Below are positions 2,354 through 20,892 of a stretch of 25,716 nt of DNA, in pieces. The position numbers were made by a program, and so were the translations under genes. Location of the stretch: positions 1 to 25,716 of IMG/VR virus record IMGVR_UViG_3300043444_000297. The stretch is one strand, 5' to 3'. Every line of letters begins with the position of its first letter. Position 1 is the stretch's first letter. The DNA is from a virus. The notes beneath the pieces are model-generated. The model saw nothing but the letters and a program-made list of their open reading frames with translations. It searched no databases and was not told the origin of the DNA.

Positions 2354-4887
2354 TATGCAGCTTTCCAGTTAGGACCCCAACCACCTTCGGCTGGGATAAG
2401 TATTTTTTCACCGGCAATTATCATTGGGTTATTGAACCATTCTTCGAACTTGGCTTCGCACCAACTGCGCTGGGACTTATGGGCTTGCCCAGCAAGCGCG
2501 TCGTGAATCATGATTAACGGTTCGGCCCGCATAAAACCACGAGGAGTGCGGTTGTCAAGATCGTAAAACATACGATGCAAGGCCAGATTCGTCGCGTAGG
2601 TGGTATTTCCCTGTGGTGCTTGAGAAAGTGCGACATTAATGTCAGGCACAGCAGGCTTACTGCGATCGCGAATGCCAAGAAAACGTCGTCTATGACCTGA
2701 AGCACTGTCAATGTATCCATGGTCTTTGAGTTGTTTAGTGATTAAGTCTCGCCTTGCTTCGACGTTATACAAGCGCATGTAAATGTCTTGATAGCGTTTA
2801 ACTTCCTTTGGAGACAGGAAAAGGAAGTTCTCGTCTTTTTGTTCTTTGTCTTGCAGGAAGTCTTCAACCCAACCTGCGACGGAATCTTTGAGAAGGACTT
2901 GAGCAGTTAGCTCCTCCTTCATTCCGTAGTTCGAACCGTGTTGCACGCGCTTGGCGCAAGTGTATCGCCAGTCTTTTCCGGAGACTTTATCGGTAAGAGT
3001 TTTGAGTTCAGCATACTTCCTAGGATCAAACCGCACGCCGTCAAGCACAAGAACAATAACTTTTGACGGCTTAATTCCATGGAGTAGATGCTGGAGCATA
3101 AGGTCGTAACCCACACTAGCAAGGTCAGCAGCAACAGTCCACGCGTCAGCACCGCTAAGGTCATATTGGAAGAAGTCAAAGTCTTCGTTGTCAGGCTCGA
3201 AGCCTTCACGCAAAGCTTTGGTTTGGTTTTGGAGATTTGTTCCGACATCGTCTACGATTGTTTTGTATGTTAGAGTAAGTTTTCCTTTCACGAACTTAAG
3301 CTCAGGCTTGAGCATCGGTCCTTGAATGGGAGTTGTGGATGAACTAAGGCGGCCAGTGTCGGTGCCTACTGCGTTGTAAGAACAGCGCACACGTCCATCG
3401 ACGTATGGCTGGATTTTGTGCAGGTCAGAGAAACGTGTGCGGAGTTTGATTAGCTTAACCACTTCGATCAACGCGGGAATCTTCGTCATCATGTAGAGAC
3501 GGCAGATAGCCTCGAAGTCTGTAGAGATTTTCATCTGCCCAGTAGCCGGGTCACGGTCCATCTGGGGAGGTAGTTTTAGATCTTCATACAACCAAGCAAT
3601 TTTTTGAGGAGTGGACTTGACGTTGAATTCACGTCCGCTCATCATGTTTACTACTTCTTGCTGAAAGACGATTTTGTTCCAAGTGCGGTCACGCTGTTCT
3701 TCCCACCATTTTTTGTTGAGCTTACACCCGCGGAGTTCCATATATAAGTATGGCCGCTGGATTTGCACGTTGAAACGGTAGTGATCAAAGCTAGGCTTGT
3801 GTTTCACAAGCTGCTTTTCCATCACGCCATCTGACTCGTGCGTAACGCATCCGTCCTTACCGCAGTAAAGCCAGAACTCGTGCTCGTCTTGGCTACCGAT
3901 TTCGTCTTTGTAGTATGGTTCCTCGGTGTATAAAGAACTGATGAAGCCTAGGTTTTTATCGAACTCACAGTAGAGTTCCCAGTGCTTCATCATCGTATCC
4001 TCTTGAACGTTTCTGACGAGGATGTTATGGCGCCACGCTAGAACGAAGGTGTCGTATAGAGCGTTTTGTAGTATCTTTGGAACATCAGGTGATTCCAAGA
4101 CAGCGGCAAGACGTTTCCAGACTTCACACTCTTCTTCAAGTGTCCAGTAAGACGAACCGTTTTTGCGACGGAAAGGAATGACAATTCCGTCATCCGGTGC
4201 GCGACATAAAGAAATACACTTCATGCCAATCTCGTCAGGATAACCTTCGATGTCGATTGCGATTGGATCACGTCGAGTTATAAGATTATCAAGGTAAGAT
4301 AACGCTACGTCGATTGACGGTCCGATGATGATGCTGCGTTGCGGAGGACGGTAGTCAGCGAAAAATGACTGTTGATAAGCTCGATGTAAGTCGAACTTGA
4401 ATATCGGTGCCCATCCGAAGTAACGTAATACAGCGGCCGGGTGATACGCAGCGACGCATTTATATCCGAAAGTAGGCGACTTGAAGATCGTGCCTCGGAT
4501 ACTGGTGATGGAACGCGAGTCCCCAAAAGCTCGGCAAGCGGTAGCGCCAAGGAGGAGGACGCAATGCGGGTTGAACTCAGCAAGGTCATGCCGCAGCGAT
4601 TGGAGCCCGCACTGAATTTCATCTGAGTTCCAATCGAATCGTGAAATGTCATTGTCCGGGGGACGTATTTGACAGACATTTCCAATGAAGCACTGTGACG
4701 CATCCACGCCGAGTTGACCCAAGAAGGCTCGCAACAGTCTACCAGAACTACCGACGAAAGGTTTTCCTTCGATTTCTTCTTCTCGTCCGGGAGCTTCTCC
4801 GACAATCGCCAAGCGGAAGTTGACAGGCAAACCAGAAGGGCTTGCGTTTGGAACGGCTTTAGGTTTGCTAGTAATGTTTTCACTCAT
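2353..4887 (-). CDS. Uracil-DNA glycosylase domain fused to family A DNA polymerase
   Basis: 844 residues. Residues about 25-165 resemble the UDG superfamily: GEAPGREEE (30-38), GKPFVGSSGRLL (41-52) and AYHPAAVLR (148-155). The CxxC that begins the iron-sulphur motif of family 4 enzymes is absent. Residues about 205-350 carry DEDD proofreading motifs: D212/E214, N275/D279 and Y341/D345. The polymerase region shows TGRLSS (511-516), motif A (YDLSGADAW, D576), motif B (AKRVQHGSNYGM, K646, Y654) and motif C IHDA (794-797). This is the phage replicative polymerase. UDG-PolA fusions are known in phages such as SPO1. Odd points: motif C reads HDA rather than the usual HDE, and His650 aligns with E. 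coli Phe762. Its start overlaps the methyltransferase end by 8 nt. Confidence 0.93.
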   Translation of the reverse strand: MSENITSKPKAVPNASPSGLPVNFRLAIVGEAPGREEEIEGKPFVGSSGRLLRAFLGQLGVDASQCFIGNVCQIRPPDNDISRFDWNSDEIQCGLQSLRHDLAEFNPHCVLLLGATACRAFGDSRSITSIRGTIFKSPTFGYKCVAAYHPAAVLRYFGWAPIFKFDLHRAYQQSFFADYRPPQRSIIIGPSIDVALSYLDNLITRRDPIAIDIEGYPDEIGMKCISLCRAPDDGIVIPFRRKNGSSYWTLEEECEVWKRLAAVLESPDVPKILQNALYDTFVLAWRHNILVRNVQEDTMMKHWELYCEFDKNLGFISSLYTEEPYYKDEIGSQDEHEFWLYCGKDGCVTHESDGVMEKQLVKHKPSFDHYRFNVQIQRPYLYMELRGCKLNKKWWEEQRDRTWNKIVFQQEVVNMMSGREFNVKSTPQKIAWLYEDLKLPPQMDRDPATGQMKISTDFEAICRLYMMTKIPALIEVVKLIKLRTRFSDLHKIQPYVDGRVRCSYNAVGTDTGRLSSSTTPIQGPMLKPELKFVKGKLTLTYKTIVDDVGTNLQNQTKALREGFEPDNEDFDFFQYDLSGADAWTVAADLASVGYDLMLQHLLHGIKPSKVIVLVLDGVRFDPRKYAELKTLTDKVSGKDWRYTCAKRVQHGSNYGMKEELTAQVLLKDSVAGWVEDFLQDKEQKDENFLFLSPKEVKRYQDIYMRLYNVEARRDLITKQLKDHGYIDSASGHRRRFLGIRDRSKPAVPDINVALSQAPQGNTTYATNLALHRMFYDLDNRTPRGFMRAEPLIMIHDALAGQAHKSQRSWCEAKFEEWFNNPMIIAGEKILIPAEGGWGPNWKAA

Positions 4888-5674
4888 AGAGTTCCGGTTT
4901 GATTACTTCTTGATCAAGACACGCAAGGCGCATCATGATTGTGTTATAATGTTTTTCATTCAGCTCGAACGCAATAGCTTTTCTTCCGAGCTGACACGCG
5001 CATACGGGAGTAGTTCCGCAGCCACCAAACGGATCAAGGACAATTCCTCCGACGGGACTGTAAGCTTTGATAATGCGATAAGTAAGTTCCTGCGGAAATG
5101 CGGCGGGATGTAGATTTTCAAAGGCGCCACCTTTTTGGGCAGCGATACCCCAAACATTTCCGGGGTCAGGTCCCAAAAGGCTGGCCTTCTTGACGTTCCC
5201 TTCCGGTGGCTTGCCGCGAACTGCATCTTTGTCGAAGAAGTATTCCAGCGAAGGATGTCCAAAGTGGAGGACCCACTCGTATTTGTTAGCGAAACGACGG
5301 TCCCCTCCGGCCGGAGTTTTGTTGGGGACAAACCATACGATTCTCTGAACAAGTCGCCAACCGTAGACTTGTTCGATGATCCGTATAAAGTCATCAGATA
5401 TACGGAGTGTAGTCCCATCTTGCACGACGTCCATGATGTTAATAACAAGGTTACCTGAGTTTCGTCGGAGAACCCGTATGCACTCGCCAAATAATTCGGT
5501 GAGGCTTCGGAGGTAATCGTCATAGGACTGGGAGTGCCCAATATCTCCGGGCGTTCCATAATCAATGATGTTCCAATACTCAGGGGACGTCCATACAAGA
5601 TCGACAGCACCGCTAGGGATGGTCTTGATGAGTTCAAGGCAGTTGCCATGACGGATAATTGCTTGAGGAGGCAT
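4880..5674 (-). CDS. DNA methyltransferase, beta-class (N4-cytosine or N6-adenine)
   Basis: 264 residues. Catalytic motif IV TSPEYWN lies near the N-terminus (29-35) and the SAM-binding motif I, VLDPFGGCGTT, lies near the C-terminus (212-222). HPAAFPQEL (189-197) corresponds to motif X. The order IV then I is the beta-class arrangement seen in MboII/PvuII-like enzymes that methylate exocyclic amino groups. The usual SPPY is SPEY here, with the second proline replaced by glutamate. No restriction nuclease is adjacent, so this looks like an orphan phage enzyme that protects phage DNA or marks sites. It starts at TAATG, coupled to the upstream ParB-fusion gene. Confidence 0.9.
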   Translation of the reverse strand: MPPQAIIRHGNCLELIKTIPSGAVDLVWTSPEYWNIIDYGTPGDIGHSQSYDDYLRSLTELFGECIRVLRRNSGNLVINIMDVVQDGTTLRISDDFIRIIEQVYGWRLVQRIVWFVPNKTPAGGDRRFANKYEWVLHFGHPSLEYFFDKDAVRGKPPEGNVKKASLLGPDPGNVWGIAAQKGGAFENLHPAAFPQELTYRIIKAYSPVGGIVLDPFGGCGTTPVCACQLGRKAIAFELNEKHYNTIMMRLACLDQEVIKPELYE

Positions 5675-7140
5675 TAGTGAAGAGGTTCGATTTCGACGTT
5701 TGGAAGGATTTGCATATAGGTATTGCTGGCTACCTGATACGCTTTTTGATAGAGCTTGAAGTCAGGTTCGTTGCAGATGAATTTGATACCGAGTTTGATG
5801 CAAGAACGAATGAGTGAGCCAGAGCCCACGCGTGCACAGATTACCGTGTCACCCCGTTTGCAGAACGCATTGAGAATCCACGTCCAGAAACTATCCGGGT
5901 AGACAGAGAAGTCGTTGCCGAATAAGAGTCTGTCTGCTTCGGAAGTTCCAAAATGGACGGAGGAGTTTTGGAAGTTGGCAAGTTTTGCATCTTCTGCGTA
6001 AGCGAAGTAAAACTCTTGGAAATTTTTACGGAACTCGATGTTTGATTGTCCAGTTCCATCGGGTGCTTTTCCGGTGTCGACATAAATAAGAGGGTGATGT
6101 TGGATTTCTGCTTTCAAACAATCAACGCGAGGCGAGCAACAAAGCGTAAAGCCACGATCAGACGGTTGATAGAACGGGATTTCATGATCAAAGTCTGTTA
6201 ACGCAACAACAAGACGCGCATTGTGATTTGCTTTGATGAAGTTGAATTGTTCAAGAGGTAGATTAGTAAGCTGCGCCTTGAGGTCAATGACCGTCTTCGC
6301 GGGCTGCGCCGGAGCCCCTCGGTCCTCGGCAGGGGGCAAGCCCCCCGCACCCCCCGCGGCTTCTAAGCCATCACCACTGGGAGCTGGCGCGGCAGCCTTC
6401 CCGTTCGGGGCAGCGAACGAACTGAATTCAGATGCAAGATCTACAGTGCGTGGCGTGACGGTGAAGAAGTCGTCATTCGGGCGGGACTTGTCGGTATACT
6501 TTGCGGCAAGGTCGTTTTGTTTGGGGAGATTAGCAACGGACTGAGAGGCGATCGCTCGATTATACTCTTCAAGTTTAAGTGCAGCAAGACGCTGGATGGC
6601 ATCTGTGATAGAGTCGCAATGCCAGAGCGGGGAGTCGTTGTTGGTGAGGTGCTTTGCGACTTCGAGGACATAGGCGACTTTGCCGTTTGAAATCTTGAAG
6701 AGGTTAGCAGTCTGCCGATTGCCCCACGATTCGGAGTTTAGTGCGGCTTTGTTTTGCTTGAGCTTGTGGACTTTGGCAACACCGATGCAGTATTCCTGCC
6801 ACGACATTTGCTTGCGTTGGACGTTTTCTTCAAGCTCTAGTTCGCCGAGATGATCGACGCTGATGGTGGGTTTGAAGGAAAACGTGATGCCAAGTTCAAG
6901 CACGCCAGTAGCGCGCATCTGTTTGATAGTCTCGTGCCAATCTTCCTTCGGCTCACGCTTCATGATTTCACCGATGGCAGTAAAGCGCCTGCCACCTGCG
7001 ACTAGAGTTTTGTTTTGGTCTATCGCGGGCGGGTGGATGAAACCGTATTGGCAGATCGAATCAGCCAGTTCATCAACCGCGCCATAGTCACGGCGGATGC
7101 GATCGTCTAGGATAACTTCAGAGATTTTAATTTGTTGCAT
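5674..7140 (-). CDS. ParB/Srx-domain protein with degenerate methyltransferase-like C-terminus
   Basis: 488 residues. The N-terminal 110 or so match the ParB/sulfiredoxin nuclease fold: ISEVILDDRIRRDYG, then LADSICQYGFIHPPAID and LVAGGRRFTAI. A helical DNA-binding part follows (about 110-200). Residues 243-281 form an Ala/Gly/Pro-rich linker encoded by unusually GC-rich DNA. The C-terminus resembles a worn methyltransferase motif I region, GDTVICARVGSGSLIRS (430-446) then NEPDFKLYQKAY (457-468), but no SPPY/DPPY catalytic motif is evident. ParB-methyltransferase fusions occur in phages. Here the C-terminal half may recognise DNA or support the intact methyltransferase encoded immediately downstream. 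A DLAAKYTDKS peptide (210-219) matches a motif shared with other products in the window. Confidence 0.82.
   Translation of the reverse strand: MQQIKISEVILDDRIRRDYGAVDELADSICQYGFIHPPAIDQNKTLVAGGRRFTAIGEIMKREPKEDWHETIKQMRATGVLELGITFSFKPTISVDHLGELELEENVQRKQMSWQEYCIGVAKVHKLKQNKAALNSESWGNRQTANLFKISNGKVAYVLEVAKHLTNNDSPLWHCDSITDAIQRLAALKLEEYNRAIASQSVANLPKQNDLAAKYTDKSRPNDDFFTVTPRTVDLASEFSSFAAPNGKAAAPAPSGDGLEAAGGAGGLPPAEDRGAPAQPAKTVIDLKAQLTNLPLEQFNFIKANHNARLVVALTDFDHEIPFYQPSDRGFTLCCSPRVDCLKAEIQHHPLIYVDTGKAPDGTGQSNIEFRKNFQEFYFAYAEDAKLANFQNSSVHFGTSEADRLLFGNDFSVYPDSFWTWILNAFCKRGDTVICARVGSGSLIRSCIKLGIKFICNEPDFKLYQKAYQVASNTYMQILPNVEIEPLH
6301..6360. repeat. GC-rich hairpin island inside the ParB-fusion gene
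   Basis: About 60 bp that are far richer in G+C than the surroundings. On the coding (minus) strand it contains GGGGTGCGGGGGGC, then TTGCCCCCTGC, then GAGGACCG, forming a strong hairpin. It reads in frame as the Gly/Ala/Pro linker. The order and several blocks resemble the GC-rich island at 21207-21247. Confidence 0.55.
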
Positions 7141-7633
7141 GTTCGTGGACGGAAATTGTTACAAGTATTTTACCTTCTTTTAACGGAGCAAGACGTGAAA
7201 AAGCGGCGCGAGATAAGTCGATCTTCACGCCTTTTGCGTAGATGTCTTTTCTCGGGCCGCGGTCGTTGACTCGGACGAGGATGGATTTGTTTTTATGAGT
7301 GACACGTAAAACGGTATTGAATGGGTAATCCCATGTAGCGCAGGTGAGTTTGGACGGATTGAACCGTTCACCATTAGATGTAGTATGCCCGGACTCATAC
7401 CACGTTGCTTTGACCGAGGCGTCGCTTTTCGAGGACTGCACGGCGCCGATGTTCTTTCTCTCGGAACTTGGCGACGCAAGGATGTTCTTGACGAATAACA
7501 GTAGCACCGTCAGGACGAACAAAACTACCACCAACTTTAAGCGCCGGACCTTGATTGAGCGTCGCACGAAGTTGTTTGGGTAACGCTTGCACAAGTCGGG
7601 CTTGTTCTGTGGAGTATTTGTTTTTCGGAACAT
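7127..7633 (-). CDS. RlpA-like double-psi beta-barrel protein with N-terminal membrane anchor
   Basis: 168 residues from the ATG at 7633. A single hydrophobic segment (about 34-52, LVVVLFVLTVLLLF) preceded by Arg/Lys residues looks like a signal anchor, so the domain would be outside the inner membrane. Residues about 75-162 match the RlpA double-psi barrel: ATWYESGHTTSNGERFN, RVNDRGP and IDLSRAAFSRLAP. RlpA proteins bind or cleave denuded peptidoglycan. In the segment that normally reads like AHRTLPFG this protein has ATWDYPFN, so the conserved histidine is lost and catalysis is doubtful. The first 230 nt overlap another plausible frame (7395-7640), so the exact start is uncertain. It may serve lysis or wall access. 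Confidence 0.75.
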   Translation of the reverse strand: MFRKTNTPQNKPDLCKRYPNNFVRRSIKVRRLKLVVVLFVLTVLLLFVKNILASPSSERKNIGAVQSSKSDASVKATWYESGHTTSNGERFNPSKLTCATWDYPFNTVLRVTHKNKSILVRVNDRGPRKDIYAKGVKIDLSRAAFSRLAPLKEGKILVTISVHEHATN

Positions 7634-7782: not shown

Positions 7783-8014
7783 CGGAATAAAGTTCTGGTT
7801 TAGGTTTGACGAATTTGTATTTATCCATCAACCGATTGATTACTTCTTCCTGCTTCGGCGTGAAGCATCCGACATGTTCAAGGTTACTACCGATGAACTC
7901 GGCTTCCCAATTACTGACTTCCACGTCAGCTTCATCCAGTGCGTGGAGAAAGGCCTTATAGTATGCGTGATGCTGGACGAAAGAGAGCTTACGCCTTGCT
8001 TCATGGTGTTCCAT
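7727..8014 (-). CDS. hypothetical protein, 95 aa
   Basis: Reading frame open from ATG 8038, but the ATG at 8014 is preferred. It lies 5 nt after a palindromic element and follows the TCACT box exactly as at other genes, while the upstream ATG falls inside the palindrome. The protein is small and soluble, with WEAEFIGSNL (36-45) and a C-terminal FTPKQEEVINRLMDKYKF helix of a kind seen in small phage proteins. Function unknown. It is isolated from the upstream gene by a strong hairpin. Confidence 0.75.
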   Translation of the reverse strand: MEHHEARRKLSFVQHHAYYKAFLHALDEADVEVSNWEAEFIGSNLEHVGCFTPKQEEVINRLMDKYKFVKPKPELYSDDKKAHRFIYPVSDDNRK

Positions 8015-8019
8015 AGTGA

Positions 8020-8036
8020 GGATCAATAATTGACCC
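8020..8036 (-). repeat. Palindromic start-associated element, copy 2
   Basis: Plus strand GGATCAATAATTGACCC. On the minus strand the palindrome is followed by TCACT and directly by ATGG of the 8014 gene. Its right arm is shared with the large hairpin at 8032-8072. Confidence 0.8.
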
Positions 8037-8072
8037 ATACGGGATGCGTGTTAGGCAGAGCCCGTATGGGTC
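8032..8072 (-). terminator. 12-bp stem hairpin after the ssDNA-binding gene
   Basis: GACCCATACGGG (8032-8043) pairs perfectly with CCCGTATGGGTC (8061-8072) around a 17-nt loop. It starts 15 nt after the stop of the 8087 gene. No clear U-tract follows (AATTATTGATCC), so it may be a terminator, an RNA 3'-end stabiliser or a processing site. Confidence 0.6.
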
Positions 8073-8086
8073 GGATTATCTGACGG

Positions 8087-8554
8087 TTAGGACTTCGGAA
8101 CGAACTGCTTGATCACAGTCTTGGCGGGGTAAACCTCGCCGGTGTCCGGGTTCGTGGTCTCCTCCTGCACGCCGGTCTTGGCAAAGAACGACTGGCGGAG
8201 GTAGATTTGGAACGTCGGGTCCCACTCACGGCGGCCAAGGACCGCATCGAGGAAGCGAGCGACGTTCGCCTTGATCGCGTCAGCAGTCATTTTCTCGGTC
8301 GGAGTGAGCGAGATCATGTGCGTGACTTGATAGCCGGGGTTAACGTCGCGACCCTTGGTGTCCTTACCGGGACCATTCAGGGTAGCACTGATCTGCAGAC
8401 CTTCACCGCCGTTCGGCATCTTGGTCGAGGCTTTGAACTCGACCTTTTTGATACCAGTGATGGTGAACTCGTAGGTGTCAGGAACGAGAACGGGATAGGA
8501 AGTATCCACGCTGCTGAGGTCCGTGTTACCGAGATCGTCGAATATGCTGCTCAT
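8087..8554 (-). CDS. probable ssDNA-binding protein (DUF669-like)
   Basis: 155 residues from ATG 8554 (MSSIFDDLGNTD). An upstream frame to 8605 would put coding sequence in the A/C-rich leader. The pattern of short acidic N-terminus, YPVLVPDTYEFTITGIKKVEFKAS, a mid-protein GKDTKGRDVNPGYQV turn and a lysine-ending tail resembles the DUF669-type beta-barrel proteins. These accompany phage recombination genes and are thought to bind single-stranded DNA. The Sak4-like ATPase and PD-(D/E)XK nuclease just upstream support this. The gene is set apart as its own unit: tRNA-Leu upstream, a 5' hairpin plus G-poor leader without ribosome site, and a strong hairpin downstream. This is consistent with high expression. 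Confidence 0.6.
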   Translation of the reverse strand: MSSIFDDLGNTDLSSVDTSYPVLVPDTYEFTITGIKKVEFKASTKMPNGGEGLQISATLNGPGKDTKGRDVNPGYQVTHMISLTPTEKMTADAIKANVARFLDAVLGRREWDPTFQIYLRQSFFAKTGVQEETTNPDTGEVYPAKTVIKQFVPKS

Positions 8555-8619: not shown

Positions 8620-8705
8620 TGGTGCCCGGTGAGGGAGTCGAACCCTCACGCCTTTTCAGGCAGAGGATTTTAAGTCCTATGTGTCTGCCATTCCACCAAC
8701 CGGGC
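8620..8705 (-). tRNA. tRNA-Leu (anticodon UAA)
   Basis: 86 nt. Acceptor GCCCGGT (from 8705) pairs with ACCGGGC, followed by discriminator A and an encoded CCA ending at 8620. The anticodon arm AGGA-CTTAAAA-TCCT places TAA at positions 34-36. A long variable arm (CTGCCTGAAAAGGCG) is typical of a class II tRNA such as leucine. The T arm GAGGG-TTCGACT-CCCTC is intact. It sits 6 nt after the stop of the Sak4-like gene. Excision of its 3' end could also define the 5' end of the mRNA for the ssDNA-binding gene. Confidence 0.96.
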
Positions 8706-12522: not shown

Positions 12523-12539
12523 GGATCAATTATTGATCA
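12523..12539 (-). repeat. Palindromic start-associated element, copy 3
   Basis: Plus strand GGATCAATTATTGATCA. On the minus strand its GATCAATAA gives the last codons and stop (Asp-Gln-stop) of the 12530 gene. It is followed by TTACTA and ATG of the 12013-12516 gene. Confidence 0.85.
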
Positions 12540-13163: not shown

Positions 13164-13817
13164 TTACGACTTGTTCGCAGCCTTGGAGATATACTGGGCA
13201 GCGCGCTCCTTACGGAGACGAGCCTCGTTCGCCTGAATCGCCTTGGCGATGGACTCGAGGGTAGCCTCGACCGTATAGCCAAGCTCCTCAGTAAGAGAAG
13301 CAGCAACGGGTTCAGCCGCACCCTGATCGAGAATTTCCTGCGCAGTATCAAGATAGACCTGCGGAATCTTCTTCTCCTTCGTTCCGCGCTCGGAAGCAGA
13401 CGGATCGAACGGGATCTTATCCAGTTCCTCCTGAATCAGACCCTTGAACGCTTCGGGTTCGACGCCCTGCTGAGCACAGACGCGCTTGAAGTATTGCACT
13501 TCAGTCTCGTCAGGGATCATCACGGCCTCTTCAGACTCGACCTCGTTACCGTCAACGATGGTCTTAACCTTGCGCTTCTTGCCCGAGTCCTTCATCTTGC
13601 GCTTGATACCGGTAGCCTCAGCCAAGCGGTCAATAACCGCTTTGCGCAGCTTGACGAGCGTATCCTTCTCGGTGACGTAAGCAATGGCGCATTCAAGCGC
13701 AGTGCCGGGAGCCTTGGCGAGATTGTCGAAGTCTTCGATCGAGGCGGGGACCTTGTAAGTAAGGCCATCGACATTGAAGGAACGCGTTTCAGCAGCGACG
13801 TAGTTAACAGCAGACAT
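13164..13817 (-). CDS. hypothetical protein, 217 aa, probably highly expressed
   Basis: Begins with a short beta segment (TRSFNVDGLTYKVPASIEDFDNLA), then a lysine-rich middle (IKRKMKDSGKKRKVK) and a long helical, acidic C-terminal half ending ERAAQYISKAANKS, similar to the shared (S/D)LAxKY peptide. Codon use is more G+C-rich and more uniform than in the neighbours, strong enough to leave a 351-codon open frame on the other strand. Together with its A/C-rich leader this suggests strong expression. No family recognised. A structural or DNA-coating role would be a guess. Confidence 0.8.
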   Translation of the reverse strand: MSAVNYVAAETRSFNVDGLTYKVPASIEDFDNLAKAPGTALECAIAYVTEKDTLVKLRKAVIDRLAEATGIKRKMKDSGKKRKVKTIVDGNEVESEEAVMIPDETEVQYFKRVCAQQGVEPEAFKGLIQEELDKIPFDPSASERGTKEKKIPQVYLDTAQEILDQGAAEPVAASLTEELGYTVEATLESIAKAIQANEARLRKERAAQYISKAANKS

Positions 13818-13862
13818 GTTGTTTTGTGTTTTGTTGTTTTGATTCCCGTTCTATCGGCCGAG
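13818..13862 (-). promoter_or_regulatory. 5' hairpin and G-poor leader of the 13817 gene
   Basis: On the minus strand GATTC (13858-13862 region) can pair with GAATC across a GGCCG core. About 30 nt of AACAAC-type sequence without ribosome site then lead to the ATG at 13817. The same layout occurs at 8554 and 18625. Confidence 0.5.
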
Positions 13863-14585
13863 AATCAGGACCGTTTCCTCGTAATGAGGGAAAGTAATTT
13901 AACTGGAAAGGTGACAGCTTATCCCTTTAGTAGTCACTATCCTTTTACCGCGGGACTAACGAACCAGTTGCTATGTCTCCCAGAACCAACTAGGAGAAAG
14001 GTTGCGCCGTATGATTAAAACTCCTGTATCCACCAAAAGAAGTAATCATACGACGTTTGCTACACCCGTAGCAAAGTGACCAATCAATAAAACGCTAAAG
14101 AGTTCTGTTGCAGTTTCGACCGCGGAGTTAGAAAGGACTTATCAGTCGGTTGCCATTTTCTAAACTGTGTTCGCTCGTATCGTTACAGTGGAATTAAACT
14201 CTGAGCCTGATGGTTTTAATTGATTGGCAAATAGATCGCACTGCGCCGGATTACACGGCAAGGTGCATAGCCGAACCCTACTTCGTGTGTGCTAATACCC
14301 AGTGCGAAAGTATTAAAGAACGAGCACCAGTCAAGTAGCGTTGCTCAGTCACTGTTGACACCGGCCATCTATTCGTGGCAGGAAAACAGAAAAGGCCGAC
14401 TAGCTAGGAGATGCGTTCACAGATGGATTCCGAGCCACCCGTGAGATACTACCTTTGCCAGTCGGCCAATAAGAGTTGAGGAGAAGTTTTTCCATTGCTT
14501 TACTCGGTTAAAGCGAGGAAAAGATTGAACGAGTGCGCGATAAAGGGCAAGAGCTAATCGCTCAATCCCTTAATCTCTGCATTCG
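13860..14585. ncRNA. candidate large structured noncoding RNA, about 725 nt
   Basis: No plausible gene in the whole stretch, but many strong self-complementary pairs. Examples: 13901-13915 with 13933-13969 (three nested helices AACTGG/CCAGTT, AAAGG/CCTTT, TGAC/GTCA); 14008-14017 with 14043-14052 (10 bp); 14056-14063 with 14068-14075 (8 bp, loop ACCC); 14128-14134 with 14157-14163; 14192-14198 with 14215-14221; 14236-14243 with 14300-14307 (8 bp); 14394-14401 with 14460-14467 (8 bp), interleaved with 14365-14370/14421-14426 as a possible pseudoknot; 14488-14502 with 14509-14522; 14530-14547 with 14567-14585. Wobble pairs in three helices favour the plus strand and one favours the minus, so orientation is open. 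Size, phage setting and nearby tRNA recall GOLLD/ROOL-type ornate RNAs, but I cannot match it to one. Confidence 0.65.
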
Positions 14586-14588
14586 GAA

Positions 14589-14900
14589 TTACGCAGCAGC
14601 TTTGTGATGTATATTGTTCAGTTGGGCTTTATTTTTACTGAGCTTGGTAAAGTTGATCGAAACGAGTTTATTGGTTTCGACTTTTGGTTCTTTGGCAGAA
14701 GTAGTCCGGCCAAGGACAATCCAGAGTCCATCCTTACGGGCTTGAACTTTAGCAGCATAGTGCTGCCAGTTTTCATCCCGAGGAGCTTCAAAGAAAGTCC
14801 AACGCTGGGAGCTTAACTGCCCTTGGGCTTTTAGTTCAAAAGCCTTAGCCCATGCGATGGAGAACTTTTCGAATGAGGTAGTTTTCTTGCGGCGCGACAT
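14589..14900 (-). CDS. hypothetical basic protein, 103 aa
   Basis: Lys/Arg-rich small protein (MSRRKKTTSFEKFSIAWAKAFE at the N-terminus) with aromatic residues through the middle (WTFFEAPRDENWQHYAAKVQ). Basicity hints at nucleic-acid binding, but no domain is recognised. ATG at 14900 is preceded by ATACTAAA and no ribosome site. Its stop abuts the structured-RNA locus. Confidence 0.7.
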   Translation of the reverse strand: MSRRKKTTSFEKFSIAWAKAFELKAQGQLSSQRWTFFEAPRDENWQHYAAKVQARKDGLWIVLGRTTSAKEPKVETNKLVSINFTKLSKNKAQLNNIHHKAAA

Positions 14901-15453: not shown

Positions 15454-15470
15454 TGATCAATTATTGATCA
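15454..15470 (-). repeat. Palindromic start-associated element, copy 4 (perfect)
   Basis: TGATCAATTATTGATCA, a perfect 17-bp palindrome about its central base. On the minus strand its first three bases are the TGA stop of the 15468 gene. It is followed by TTACTTCC and the ATG of the 15206 gene. Confidence 0.9.
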
Positions 15471-16742: not shown

Positions 16743-16759
16743 TGGTCAATTATTGACCC
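16743..16759 (-). repeat. Palindromic start-associated element, copy 5
   Basis: Plus strand TGGTCAATTATTGACCC. On the minus strand GGT CAA TAA ends the 16750 gene. TCACTTTT and the ATG of the small membrane protein follow. Confidence 0.85.
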
Positions 16760-17245: not shown

Positions 17246-17266
17246 GATTAGTTTAGTGCTTATGGA

Positions 17267-17296
17267 GGATACGAACGTCTAGCTCGCTTCGCTCGC
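17267..17296. repeat. GC-rich intergenic repeat, copy C
   Basis: Plus strand GGATACGAACGTCTAG then CTCGCTTCGCTCGC. Best match is copy B (16540). Located between the 17302 gene stop and the 17245 gene start. Confidence 0.6.
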
Positions 17297-17301
17297 CGAG
17301 T

Positions 17302-17487
17302 TTATGGTAGTATAGTTATACTGTCAAAGCAAGCCGCAAGCATTGCACGAAACGCCTCAGAATCGTTATCACGAACTGCGCGCTCCTCAATCTTGTCTAC
17401 AATCTCGCGACCAGTAATAAGTCCCTTTCGGAACTTATACACTAAATCCTTAACAGTCTCCCATTGCGGTAATGTTAGTTTTTCCAT
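17302..17487 (-). CDS. hypothetical protein, 61 aa
   Basis: Start taken at ATG 17487 (MEKLTLPQWETV), directly after the context GAATACT. The frame is open to 17508. Helical, acidic protein with LVYKFRKGLITGREIVDKIEERAV. Small phage proteins of this kind are common and unassigned. Confidence 0.68.
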   Translation of the reverse strand: MEKLTLPQWETVKDLVYKFRKGLITGREIVDKIEERAVRDNDSEAFRAMLAACFDSITILP

Positions 17488-17895
17488 AGTATTCGATAAA
17501 GCAACCAACTACCATAGTCAGGTGCTTTAACCAACGCTATAAATATCCCGATTAAATCAATTGGTTGATTGATTGATCAATCTCTTTCCGTCGATCAGCT
17601 TGAACTGTCCAAAATACTGTTTGAACGTGTGATTGCCATATTACGCATTTGTGCCAAAGTATGGGAGCCTTCCTATATAGTATGTAAAAAAAAAAAAAAT
17701 AAATATACTGTATAGCCAAAAGCCATACGGCTCACATAGAAGATTGTTGACCACTAATCAGCAATTCACCGTAATTTAATCGTTTTGAAAACTGTAGAGG
17801 CATAAGCTAGCGAAAATGAACAATTGACTAACTTACTAACTAATCTAATCCAGTCGATCATTAATCGGTTAAGCCCTTAATCGCTTTATTTGCAA
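17488..17895. other. 408-bp AT-rich stretch without a credible gene
   Basis: Only very short frames (23 aa or less) on the minus strand. Contains a run of 14 A (17686-17699) flanked by an 11-nt inverted repeat (CTATATAGTAT, 17673-17683; ATACTGTATAG, 17705-17715), an AGCC-ATAC-GGCT hairpin (17721-17732), GTTTT-G-AAAAC at about 17783-17793, and an ATTGATCAAT palindrome at 17572-17581. It could hold a replication origin, a promoter region or an end of a transcript. The sequence does not decide. Confidence 0.4.
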
Positions 17896-18045
17896 TTACT
17901 GGCGCATACCTTGCCACCAAGTTTGGTGCATATCTTGCATCCAAAGTATGCAGGTTTCTGGTGAACTATAGATTGTTCGATAAGCAGTAGTTCCGGGTTT
18001 GGCGGCACAGTTTACGAAGTTGTAATAATAGATTGCGTCTTGCAT
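17896..18045 (-). CDS. hypothetical protein, 49 aa, Trp/Tyr/Met-rich
   Basis: ATG 18045 to TAA 17896. Starts MQDAIYYYNFVNCAAKPG and ends WMQDMHQTWWQGMRQ, unusually rich in aromatic residues and methionine. Palindrome copy 6 lies 37 nt upstream of the start, in the orientation used elsewhere. No family recognised. Confidence 0.55.
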   Translation of the reverse strand: MQDAIYYYNFVNCAAKPGTTAYRTIYSSPETCILWMQDMHQTWWQGMRQ

Positions 18046-18082
18046 ATTGTGTTTAAGTTTAATCAGACCCTAAAGCTAGTGA

Positions 18083-18099
18083 TGATCAATAATTGACCA
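18083..18099 (-). repeat. Palindromic start-associated element, copy 6
   Basis: Plus strand TGATCAATAATTGACCA. The symmetry extends outwards: AGTGATG on the left matches CATCACT on the right, giving 13-nt arms (one mismatch) about the central A. On the minus strand it is followed by TCACT. ATG of the 18045 gene is 37 nt away. Confidence 0.8.
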
Positions 18100-18118
18100 T
18101 CACTAAATTAGGAGCTAA

Positions 18119-18280
18119 TTAAATCAGTTCGCGCAGGTCGTAAATTACCGCAAAAGGTAGATAGTTGCAAAATGTCGCGTTTACGGTAATGTAATCCGCA
18201 GGATAGTAAATTGTTGACCATTCGTTCAAATCGGACTGTGTCCAATGCGTTTCGTCGGTGGATTTGTCTAAAGTTGTCAT
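18119..18280 (-). CDS. hypothetical protein, 53 aa
   Basis: ATG 18280 (context CTTACCT) to TAA 18119. Polar N-terminus (MTTLDKSTDETHWTQSDLNEW) followed by an aromatic, beta-like C-terminus (IYYPADYITV, then FCNYLPFAVIYDL). No family recognised. It sits between a hairpin and palindrome copy 6, a typical cassette place in this block. Confidence 0.6.
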   Translation of the reverse strand: MTTLDKSTDETHWTQSDLNEWSTIYYPADYITVNATFCNYLPFAVIYDLRELI

Positions 18281-18293
18281 AGGTAAGACCATC

Positions 18294-18312
18294 GGGCGTT
18301 TGCAGTCCGCCC
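18294..18312 (-). terminator. short GC hairpin after the 18341 gene
   Basis: GGGCG (18294-18298) pairs with CGCCC (18308-18312), 29 nt after the stop at 18341. A second small palindrome GCGC-TTATT-GCGC lies between. Weak as a terminator, but it completes the leader/gene/hairpin layout seen at 8554 and 13817. Confidence 0.35.
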
Positions 18313-18340
18313 TAGGTTTCGCGCTTATTGCGCTCGTCAG

Positions 18341-18625
18341 TTACCCTTTGCTCTTAGCAAGTGCGGCATACTTTTCCGCCAAGCTAGACGCCTTCGCCTT
18401 TTCGTTCAACGCCTTGCACTTGATCATCGCCTTTTCCATGTTACTCGCATAAGCGGGCAATGCGGAAAGCGTGGTGATTGCATCGGCAAAGTTTTCTTTG
18501 TCAATCAAACCCTCCTCAGCTAGAATCAAGGCAACCGTTGCCCAAAACGCCTCGCCGTTAACTTCAGTAAAACCAAAGGTCTCAACGGCTTGGGTGTAAT
18601 ATTTAGTAATGGTCTCAGCATTCAT
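18341..18625 (-). CDS. hypothetical protein, 94 aa, with SLAEKY tail
   Basis: Helical protein (residues 1-70, ALILAEEGLIDKENFADAI and similar) with a lysine/alanine tail ASSLAEKYAALAKSKG that contains the shared (S/D)LAxKY peptide. First gene of the leftward arm, preceded by a GNRA-capped hairpin and a G-poor leader without ribosome site. This suggests early and strong expression. Function unknown; early host-directed proteins are often of this size. Confidence 0.78.
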   Translation of the reverse strand: MNAETITKYYTQAVETFGFTEVNGEAFWATVALILAEEGLIDKENFADAITTLSALPAYASNMEKAMIKCKALNEKAKASSLAEKYAALAKSKG

Positions 18626-18896: not shown

Positions 18897-18913
18897 GGAT
18901 CAATAATTGACCA
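18897..18913 (+). repeat. Palindromic start-associated element, copy 7
   Basis: Plus strand GGATCAATAATTGACCA. Unlike the other copies it lacks a clear TYACT box. Read rightward it is followed 4 nt later by the ATG of the 23-aa frame at 18918. Confidence 0.75.
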
Positions 18914-20529: not shown

Positions 20530-20892
20530 ATGAGTAACGATTTCTGGAAAATAAACATCGGGCATGTAGCAACGATCGCAGTTTTCTGCGTCGGTCTCGG
20601 TATCGCCTATCAGGAGCTTCGAGGAGAACAGAAACTTTCGGAACAAAAATTTACTTCCGAAGTTCAGCGCCTCGAAACTAAAATCAATCTCCTCGATGCG
20701 TCGCAGCCGCAGATTGCCCAACTTACCCGCGAGCTTGCTGAGCTTCGCGTTGAAATGAAATATCTTCGCCTTGCGTTGGAGGCTAAATCTCCCACACGCG
20801 CCACATCACTTTTCTTCGAATTACCTGATCAACAATTGATCATCACTCCTGCAATTTATGCACAACACAGTTCCATTCAATCTTTCCGTTAA
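20530..20892 (+). CDS. membrane-anchored coiled-coil protein, 120 aa (possible inner spanin)
   Basis: One hydrophobic segment at about 11-26 (GHVATIAVFCVGLGIAY), then a long coiled coil (EQKLSEQKFTSEVQRLETKINLL; IAQLTRELAELRVEMKYLRLALEA, to about 88) and a short tail. N-terminal anchor plus periplasmic coiled coil is the layout of inner-membrane spanins. Some holin-like or tail-accessory proteins look similar. No good ribosome site. Its last 35 nt overlap the next gene, and palindrome copy 8 lies within its final codons. Confidence 0.7.
   Translation: MSNDFWKINIGHVATIAVFCVGLGIAYQELRGEQKLSEQKFTSEVQRLETKINLLDASQPQIAQLTRELAELRVEMKYLRLALEAKSPTRATSLFFELPDQQLIITPAIYAQHSSIQSFR
20826..20842 (+). repeat. 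Palindromic start-associated element, copy 8
   Basis: TGATCAACAATTGATCA, one mismatch from perfect symmetry, followed by TCACT and, 15 nt after the palindrome, the ATG at 20858. It is the only clear copy in plus orientation and lies inside the end of the upstream coding frame. Confidence 0.82.

Follow-up and report, generated by a model that had tools for sequence, protein, structure and literature searches.

A candidate large structured non-coding RNA in the early region of an uncultured phage

The window, that is the whole stretch of DNA that was analysed (25,716 nt), is a 25.7-kb IMG/VR phage fragment from an uncultured phage. Its minus strand carries early genes, including those for a DNA polymerase, an exonuclease, a ParB/methyltransferase, Sak4, a Cas4-like nuclease and thymidylate synthase, while terminase and tail genes are found on the plus strand. 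Within the early region, where all genes lie on the minus strand, 771 nt (13818–14588) make up the whole interval between an upstream orphan gene of 103 aa (14589–14900) and a downstream gene of 217 aa (13164–13817). The initial annotation had described a gene-free stretch of 725 nt, and the empty interval proved to be slightly longer than that. The longest open reading frames (ORFs) inside it reach at most 44 codons from an ATG and 51 codons from a GTG or TTG start. Stop codons are spread throughout all six frames, and none of the single stop-codon reassignments tried as alternative genetic codes opens the gap from end to end. Based on a codon log-likelihood trained on the same phage, none of the six frames showed a codon signal (−0.08 to −0.03, negative throughout), whereas 17 of 18 reference genes scored between 0.06 and 0.26 and the remaining one 0.003. 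A 351-aa plus-strand ORF entering the gap from 12963 was discarded as a shadow ORF antisense to the 217-aa gene; its codon score is near zero (0.017).

The folding of the locus was compared with 160 dinucleotide-preserving shuffles, a control that the initial annotation had proposed for the many helices it listed. These helices go beyond chance: the z-score was −5.6 for the minus and −4.2 for the plus strand, and on either strand the locus was more stable than all 160 shuffles. On the minus strand, 258 nt were paired at P>0.9, compared to 107±55 in the shuffles. Sign and order were the same in earlier runs of 20 and 60 shuffles, and across runs the minus-strand z-score ranged from −5.6 to −6.5. 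Coding controls showed values between −0.4 and −2.8. Among 39 windows of equal length along the genome, the mean was about −2.4, with some coding windows at −4 to −5; the locus (−5.9) ranked second behind the 771-nt window holding the tRNA-Leu gene (anticodon TAA; 8620–8705, minus strand; −6.2). As the tRNA window ranks above the locus, folding alone is suggestive, not proof. At the scale of 150-nt local windows, only 13951–14100 was exceptional. The fold signal is thus real when set against the composition control, but it stands out less from the background of the genome itself. Two traits of large structured phage non-coding RNAs are present at the locus, namely the lack of ORFs over several hundred nucleotides and folding above composition-matched controls.

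The predicted minus-strand fold comprises about 8–10 hairpin domains and one long-range helix, covers nt 4–749 of the gap, and its signal stems from this helix together with many stems of 8–16 bp. Reading 5' to 3' along the minus strand, a 5' hairpin domain (14530–14585) begins 4 nt past the stop codon of the 103-aa gene and is built on a 15 bp stem (CGAATGCAGAGATTAAGGG/CCCTTTATCGCGCACTCG) plus GAGC/GCTC, with most pairs at P>0.9. It is followed by a predicted stem-loop at 14394–14467 with a 16 bp outer stem (GGCCGACTGGC.../...GCTAGTCGGCC) and a 10 bp inner stem (UCACGGGUGG/CCAUCUGUGA, two G-U pairs, P≥0.94), and by another at 14236–14307, in which TCGCACTGGGT/GCGCAGTGCGA encloses ACACGAAGTAGGG.../...CCTTGCCGTGT. 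The long-range helix (14079–14228; P 0.64–0.99) is formed by 14 + 10 bp, GCCAATCAAT.AAAAC/GTTTTATTGATTGGT and GCTCAGAGTTT/GAACTCTTTAGC, with the arms 14228–14213/14093–14079 and then 14206–14196/14105–14094, and closes a multibranch loop of about 90 nt. Further hairpins are predicted at 14056–14075 (TTTGCTAC/GTAGCAAA), at 14005–14055 (13 bp + 6 bp, CGTCGTATGATTA/TAATCATACGGCG, P≥0.89) and at 13976–13997 (TCTCCTAG/CTGGGAGA). The stem-loop at 13889–13942, GGATAGTGA/TTACTTTCC around ACTAAAGGGATA/TGTCACCTTTCCAGT, is predicted on the minus strand only. The 3' terminal hairpin (13840–13867, TGATTCTCGGCC/GAACGGGAATCA, P≥0.89) has no U run after it. The last part of the gap, 13818–13839, is an unstructured A/C-rich leader (AAACAACAAAACACAAAACAAC) directly 5' of the ATG of the 217-aa gene; similar leaders precede homologues of this gene in some other phages of the group. 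A pseudoknot suggested earlier between 14365–14370 (CCATCT) and 14421–14426 (AGATGG) is unsupported: the segments are complementary, but the second is taken by a stronger local helix (14417–14426/14435–14444) with P≥0.94 (minus strand) or 0.8 (plus strand).

Of the two, the minus strand is favoured as the transcribed one because the flanking genes lie on it, its fold is better, and it holds the 258 nt of high-probability pairs. In the helices common to both strands, the minus strand has 11 G-U pairs to the plus strand's 7, a count that leans weakly towards the minus strand, although sequence alone leaves the strand unsettled. The wobble pairs had been read as favouring the plus strand; this preference finds no support in view of these counts, the minus-strand neighbours and the limits of the predicted structure, 4 nt past one stop codon and 22 nt before the next ATG. 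No good minus-strand promoter or intrinsic terminator bounding the locus was found.

Elsewhere in the genome, a 15-bp near-palindrome (GRTCAATWATTGAYC) occurs in eight copies (1458–1472, 8021–8035, 12524–12538, 15455–15469, 16744–16758, 18084–18098, 18898–18912 and 20827–20841), compared to a chance expectation of 0.15. Five of them (1458, 8021, 12524, 15455 and 16744) lie just 5' of the ATG of a minus-strand gene, and those at 12524, 15455 and 16744 overlap the stop codon of the preceding gene. This near-palindrome is a candidate operator or intercistronic control element.

Relatives of the phage were sought in IMG/VR by TerL, which returned one contig at 100% (L082, the same phage) and next ones at 58% or less; early-gene relatives were collected with a Sak4 alignment. 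Many of the latter encode homologues of the 217-aa protein (29–42% identity), and the sequence ahead of these, where read, holds small genes or short gaps (0–300 nt in most) with no recognisable RNA. For the locus itself, no homologue was found by blastn against phages and plasmids, by blastn and nhmmer on the fetched related loci, or with two single-sequence covariance models (R1 and R2) run over related loci and relative contigs; when 50 complete contigs of relatives were searched at the DNA level, only matches of 14–31 nt emerged. Weak R1 matches inside TerL (L150) and inside a 668-aa ORF (G012) were taken as chance. The reach of a model built on a single sequence ends at fairly close relatives, and these searches may thus have passed over a diverged homologue. 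No homologue emerged either when IMG/VR was scanned with back-translated patterns from parts of the RNA, a method that picks up near-identical copies only, and the alignment of the 217-aa homologues was too variable for scanning. Since neither sequence nor covariance-model searches gave a homologue, the locus appears to be specific to the source phage within the collections searched.

Two contigs were considered by position. In L089, the region upstream of the 217-aa homologue (6336–7343, z −4.2) looked like a positional homologue at first sight and was dropped because its minus strand reads as small genes, one of them for a Cys-rich repeat protein. The latter (6960–7270, minus strand) is small, contains CxxC-like units and is masked by a longer antisense ORF. 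In L187, at least 200 nt free of ORFs, as far as the contig extends, precede the 217-aa homologue and end in a similar A/C-rich leader; this leader shows no sequence similarity to the locus, and a scan for more such contigs returned the L187 contig alone.

Other ORF-free, strongly folding loci of about 0.5–0.8 kb were detected in several relatives, among them L145, L141, L124, L197, L103 and L087. On the minus strand, these are L145 4115–4737 (z about −10, within a range of −9 to −13 shared with L141, and −26 in one run of 10 shuffles), L141 5924–6532 (about −9 to −13), L197 667–1234 (−8), L103 7771–8368 (−5) and L087 1633–2293 (−5 to −6); the L124 locus (7895–8489) scored −4 to −10 depending on strand and run. 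A further minus-strand locus, L156 (about 4470–5130), is homologous to the L145 and L141 elements. Those of L145, L156, L141, L124, L103 and L087 sit on the early strand at a distance of about 0.7–1.3 kb upstream of TerS. None of them shows sequence similarity to 13818–14588, and Rfam gave no match for eight such loci (including L145, L141, L124, L103 and L087). Long arms made of simple repeats are found in L087 (GGTC/GACC) and L124 (GGTGGATG).

The L145, L156 and L141 elements have conserved blocks in common (GATATAGGC, ATTATCAAtGACTTaGC) together with long variable hairpins. In their three-sequence alignment, a two-sided change is kept in at least one sequence at 42 of 149 predicted pairs; three sequences are too few for a test. 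These elements are a better covariation target than 13818–14588. In the source phage, the region where relatives place their structured locus (17246–18118) is gene-poor, with weak small ORFs, and 17658–18428 gave a z-score of about −4; a second non-coding element may be located there.

Comparison with known RNA families (Rfam 15) at the gathering threshold returned the tRNA-Leu as the only match, and a permissive scan of the locus (E≤10) gave just two chance matches far below the cut-off. At neither threshold did the locus match group I or group II introns, OLE, HEARO, RNase P, tmRNA or any other Rfam family, and ARAGORN found no tmRNA. The covariance models of GOLLD (RF02032) and ROOL (RF03087) gave nothing at E≤10, either in the Rfam scans or when each was run singly; the single-model ROOL search had no positive-control match, while cmscan did detect the tRNA. 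The failure to match GOLLD or ROOL, stated in the initial annotation with these models proposed as the check, was hence confirmed, and it extends to HEARO and OLE.

As the 771 bases are non-coding and fold far above chance, the locus probably makes a large structured RNA. Our preferred reading, held with moderate confidence, is a structured non-coding RNA of about 770 nt, encoded on the minus strand within the early/replication operon and most likely a discrete RNA. Of the original proposal, the large structured RNA itself remains the reading that best accounts for a gap that is non-coding and folds strongly, while the plus strand and the pseudoknot do not. Similar-sized ORF-free folding loci in L145, L141, L124, L197 and L087 argue for it; the lack of a bounding promoter or terminator, the lack of a homologue, the negative background of the genome windows and the small genes or short gaps that relatives with the 217-aa gene have at this place argue against it. 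Such an RNA would take up everything between the stop codon that ends the 103-aa gene and a point about 22 nt short of the 217-aa start codon. It would be transcribed together with the early/replication operon, may be cut out of the polycistronic transcript or be stable within it, and could act in trans in the manner of GOLLD and ROOL.

The main rival is a long structured intercistronic leader acting in cis, which would either free translation of the 217-aa gene from coupling to the genes upstream or stabilise its mRNA, with no separate RNA being formed. The position directly ahead of this gene, the unstructured A/C-rich end before its ATG and the ORF-free stretch with a similar end in L187 are what such a leader would look like, but 771 nt is very long for one, most relatives have 0–300 nt or small genes there, and the L187 leader is unrelated in sequence; we regard it as a tentative alternative. 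It is unlikely that the gap is a spacer or a decayed gene whose folding excess reflects a general bias of the genome: coding windows of the same genome do average about −2.4, some reaching −4 to −5, and no conservation was found, but the locus lies at −5.6 to −6.5, has stops in every frame and lacks codon bias, and 0.77 kb of junk is more than phages usually retain. Least probable is a DNA-level element (a replication origin, packaging or recombination site) that folds as a by-product, since, although both strands fold above shuffles and palindromic non-coding loci lie near terminase in some relatives, the locus has no direct or inverted repeats of at least 14 nt and no iterons, its numerous helices are short and irregular, and folding is stronger on the minus than on the plus strand.

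Returning to the discrete structured RNA, it is conceivable, if doubtful, that the locus is the first representative of a novel class of ornate large phage RNAs unrelated to GOLLD, ROOL and OLE, and that several phages of its uncultured group carry different unannotated structured RNAs of 0.5–0.8 kb in their early regions. With one more independent locus for a large structured RNA, there would be more cases from which the roles of such RNAs could be learned, and the signs of unannotated 0.5–0.8 kb structured loci in several phages of one group would add to them.

Among the systems available for comparison, the L145, L156 and L141 loci are sited about 1–1.3 kb upstream of TerS and have long palindromic arms, unlike 13818–14588, and they resemble it in phage group, size and location on the early strand, with L145 and L141 likewise absent from Rfam. 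GOLLD and ROOL are large phage RNAs of unknown roles that assemble into RNA-only cages, the ROOL cage being homo-oligomeric (PMC12286853). While the conserved 3' region of GOLLD was not found in the locus, GOLLD is likewise phage-encoded, about 800 nt long and multi-domain. The locus also differs from ROOL in not lying beside a tRNA island, the nearest and sole tRNA found being 5 kb off; nevertheless, ROOL is phage-encoded as well, measures about 600–660 nt, has no protein product and is dense in helices (sizes and phage location of both RNAs as given in PMC12286853).
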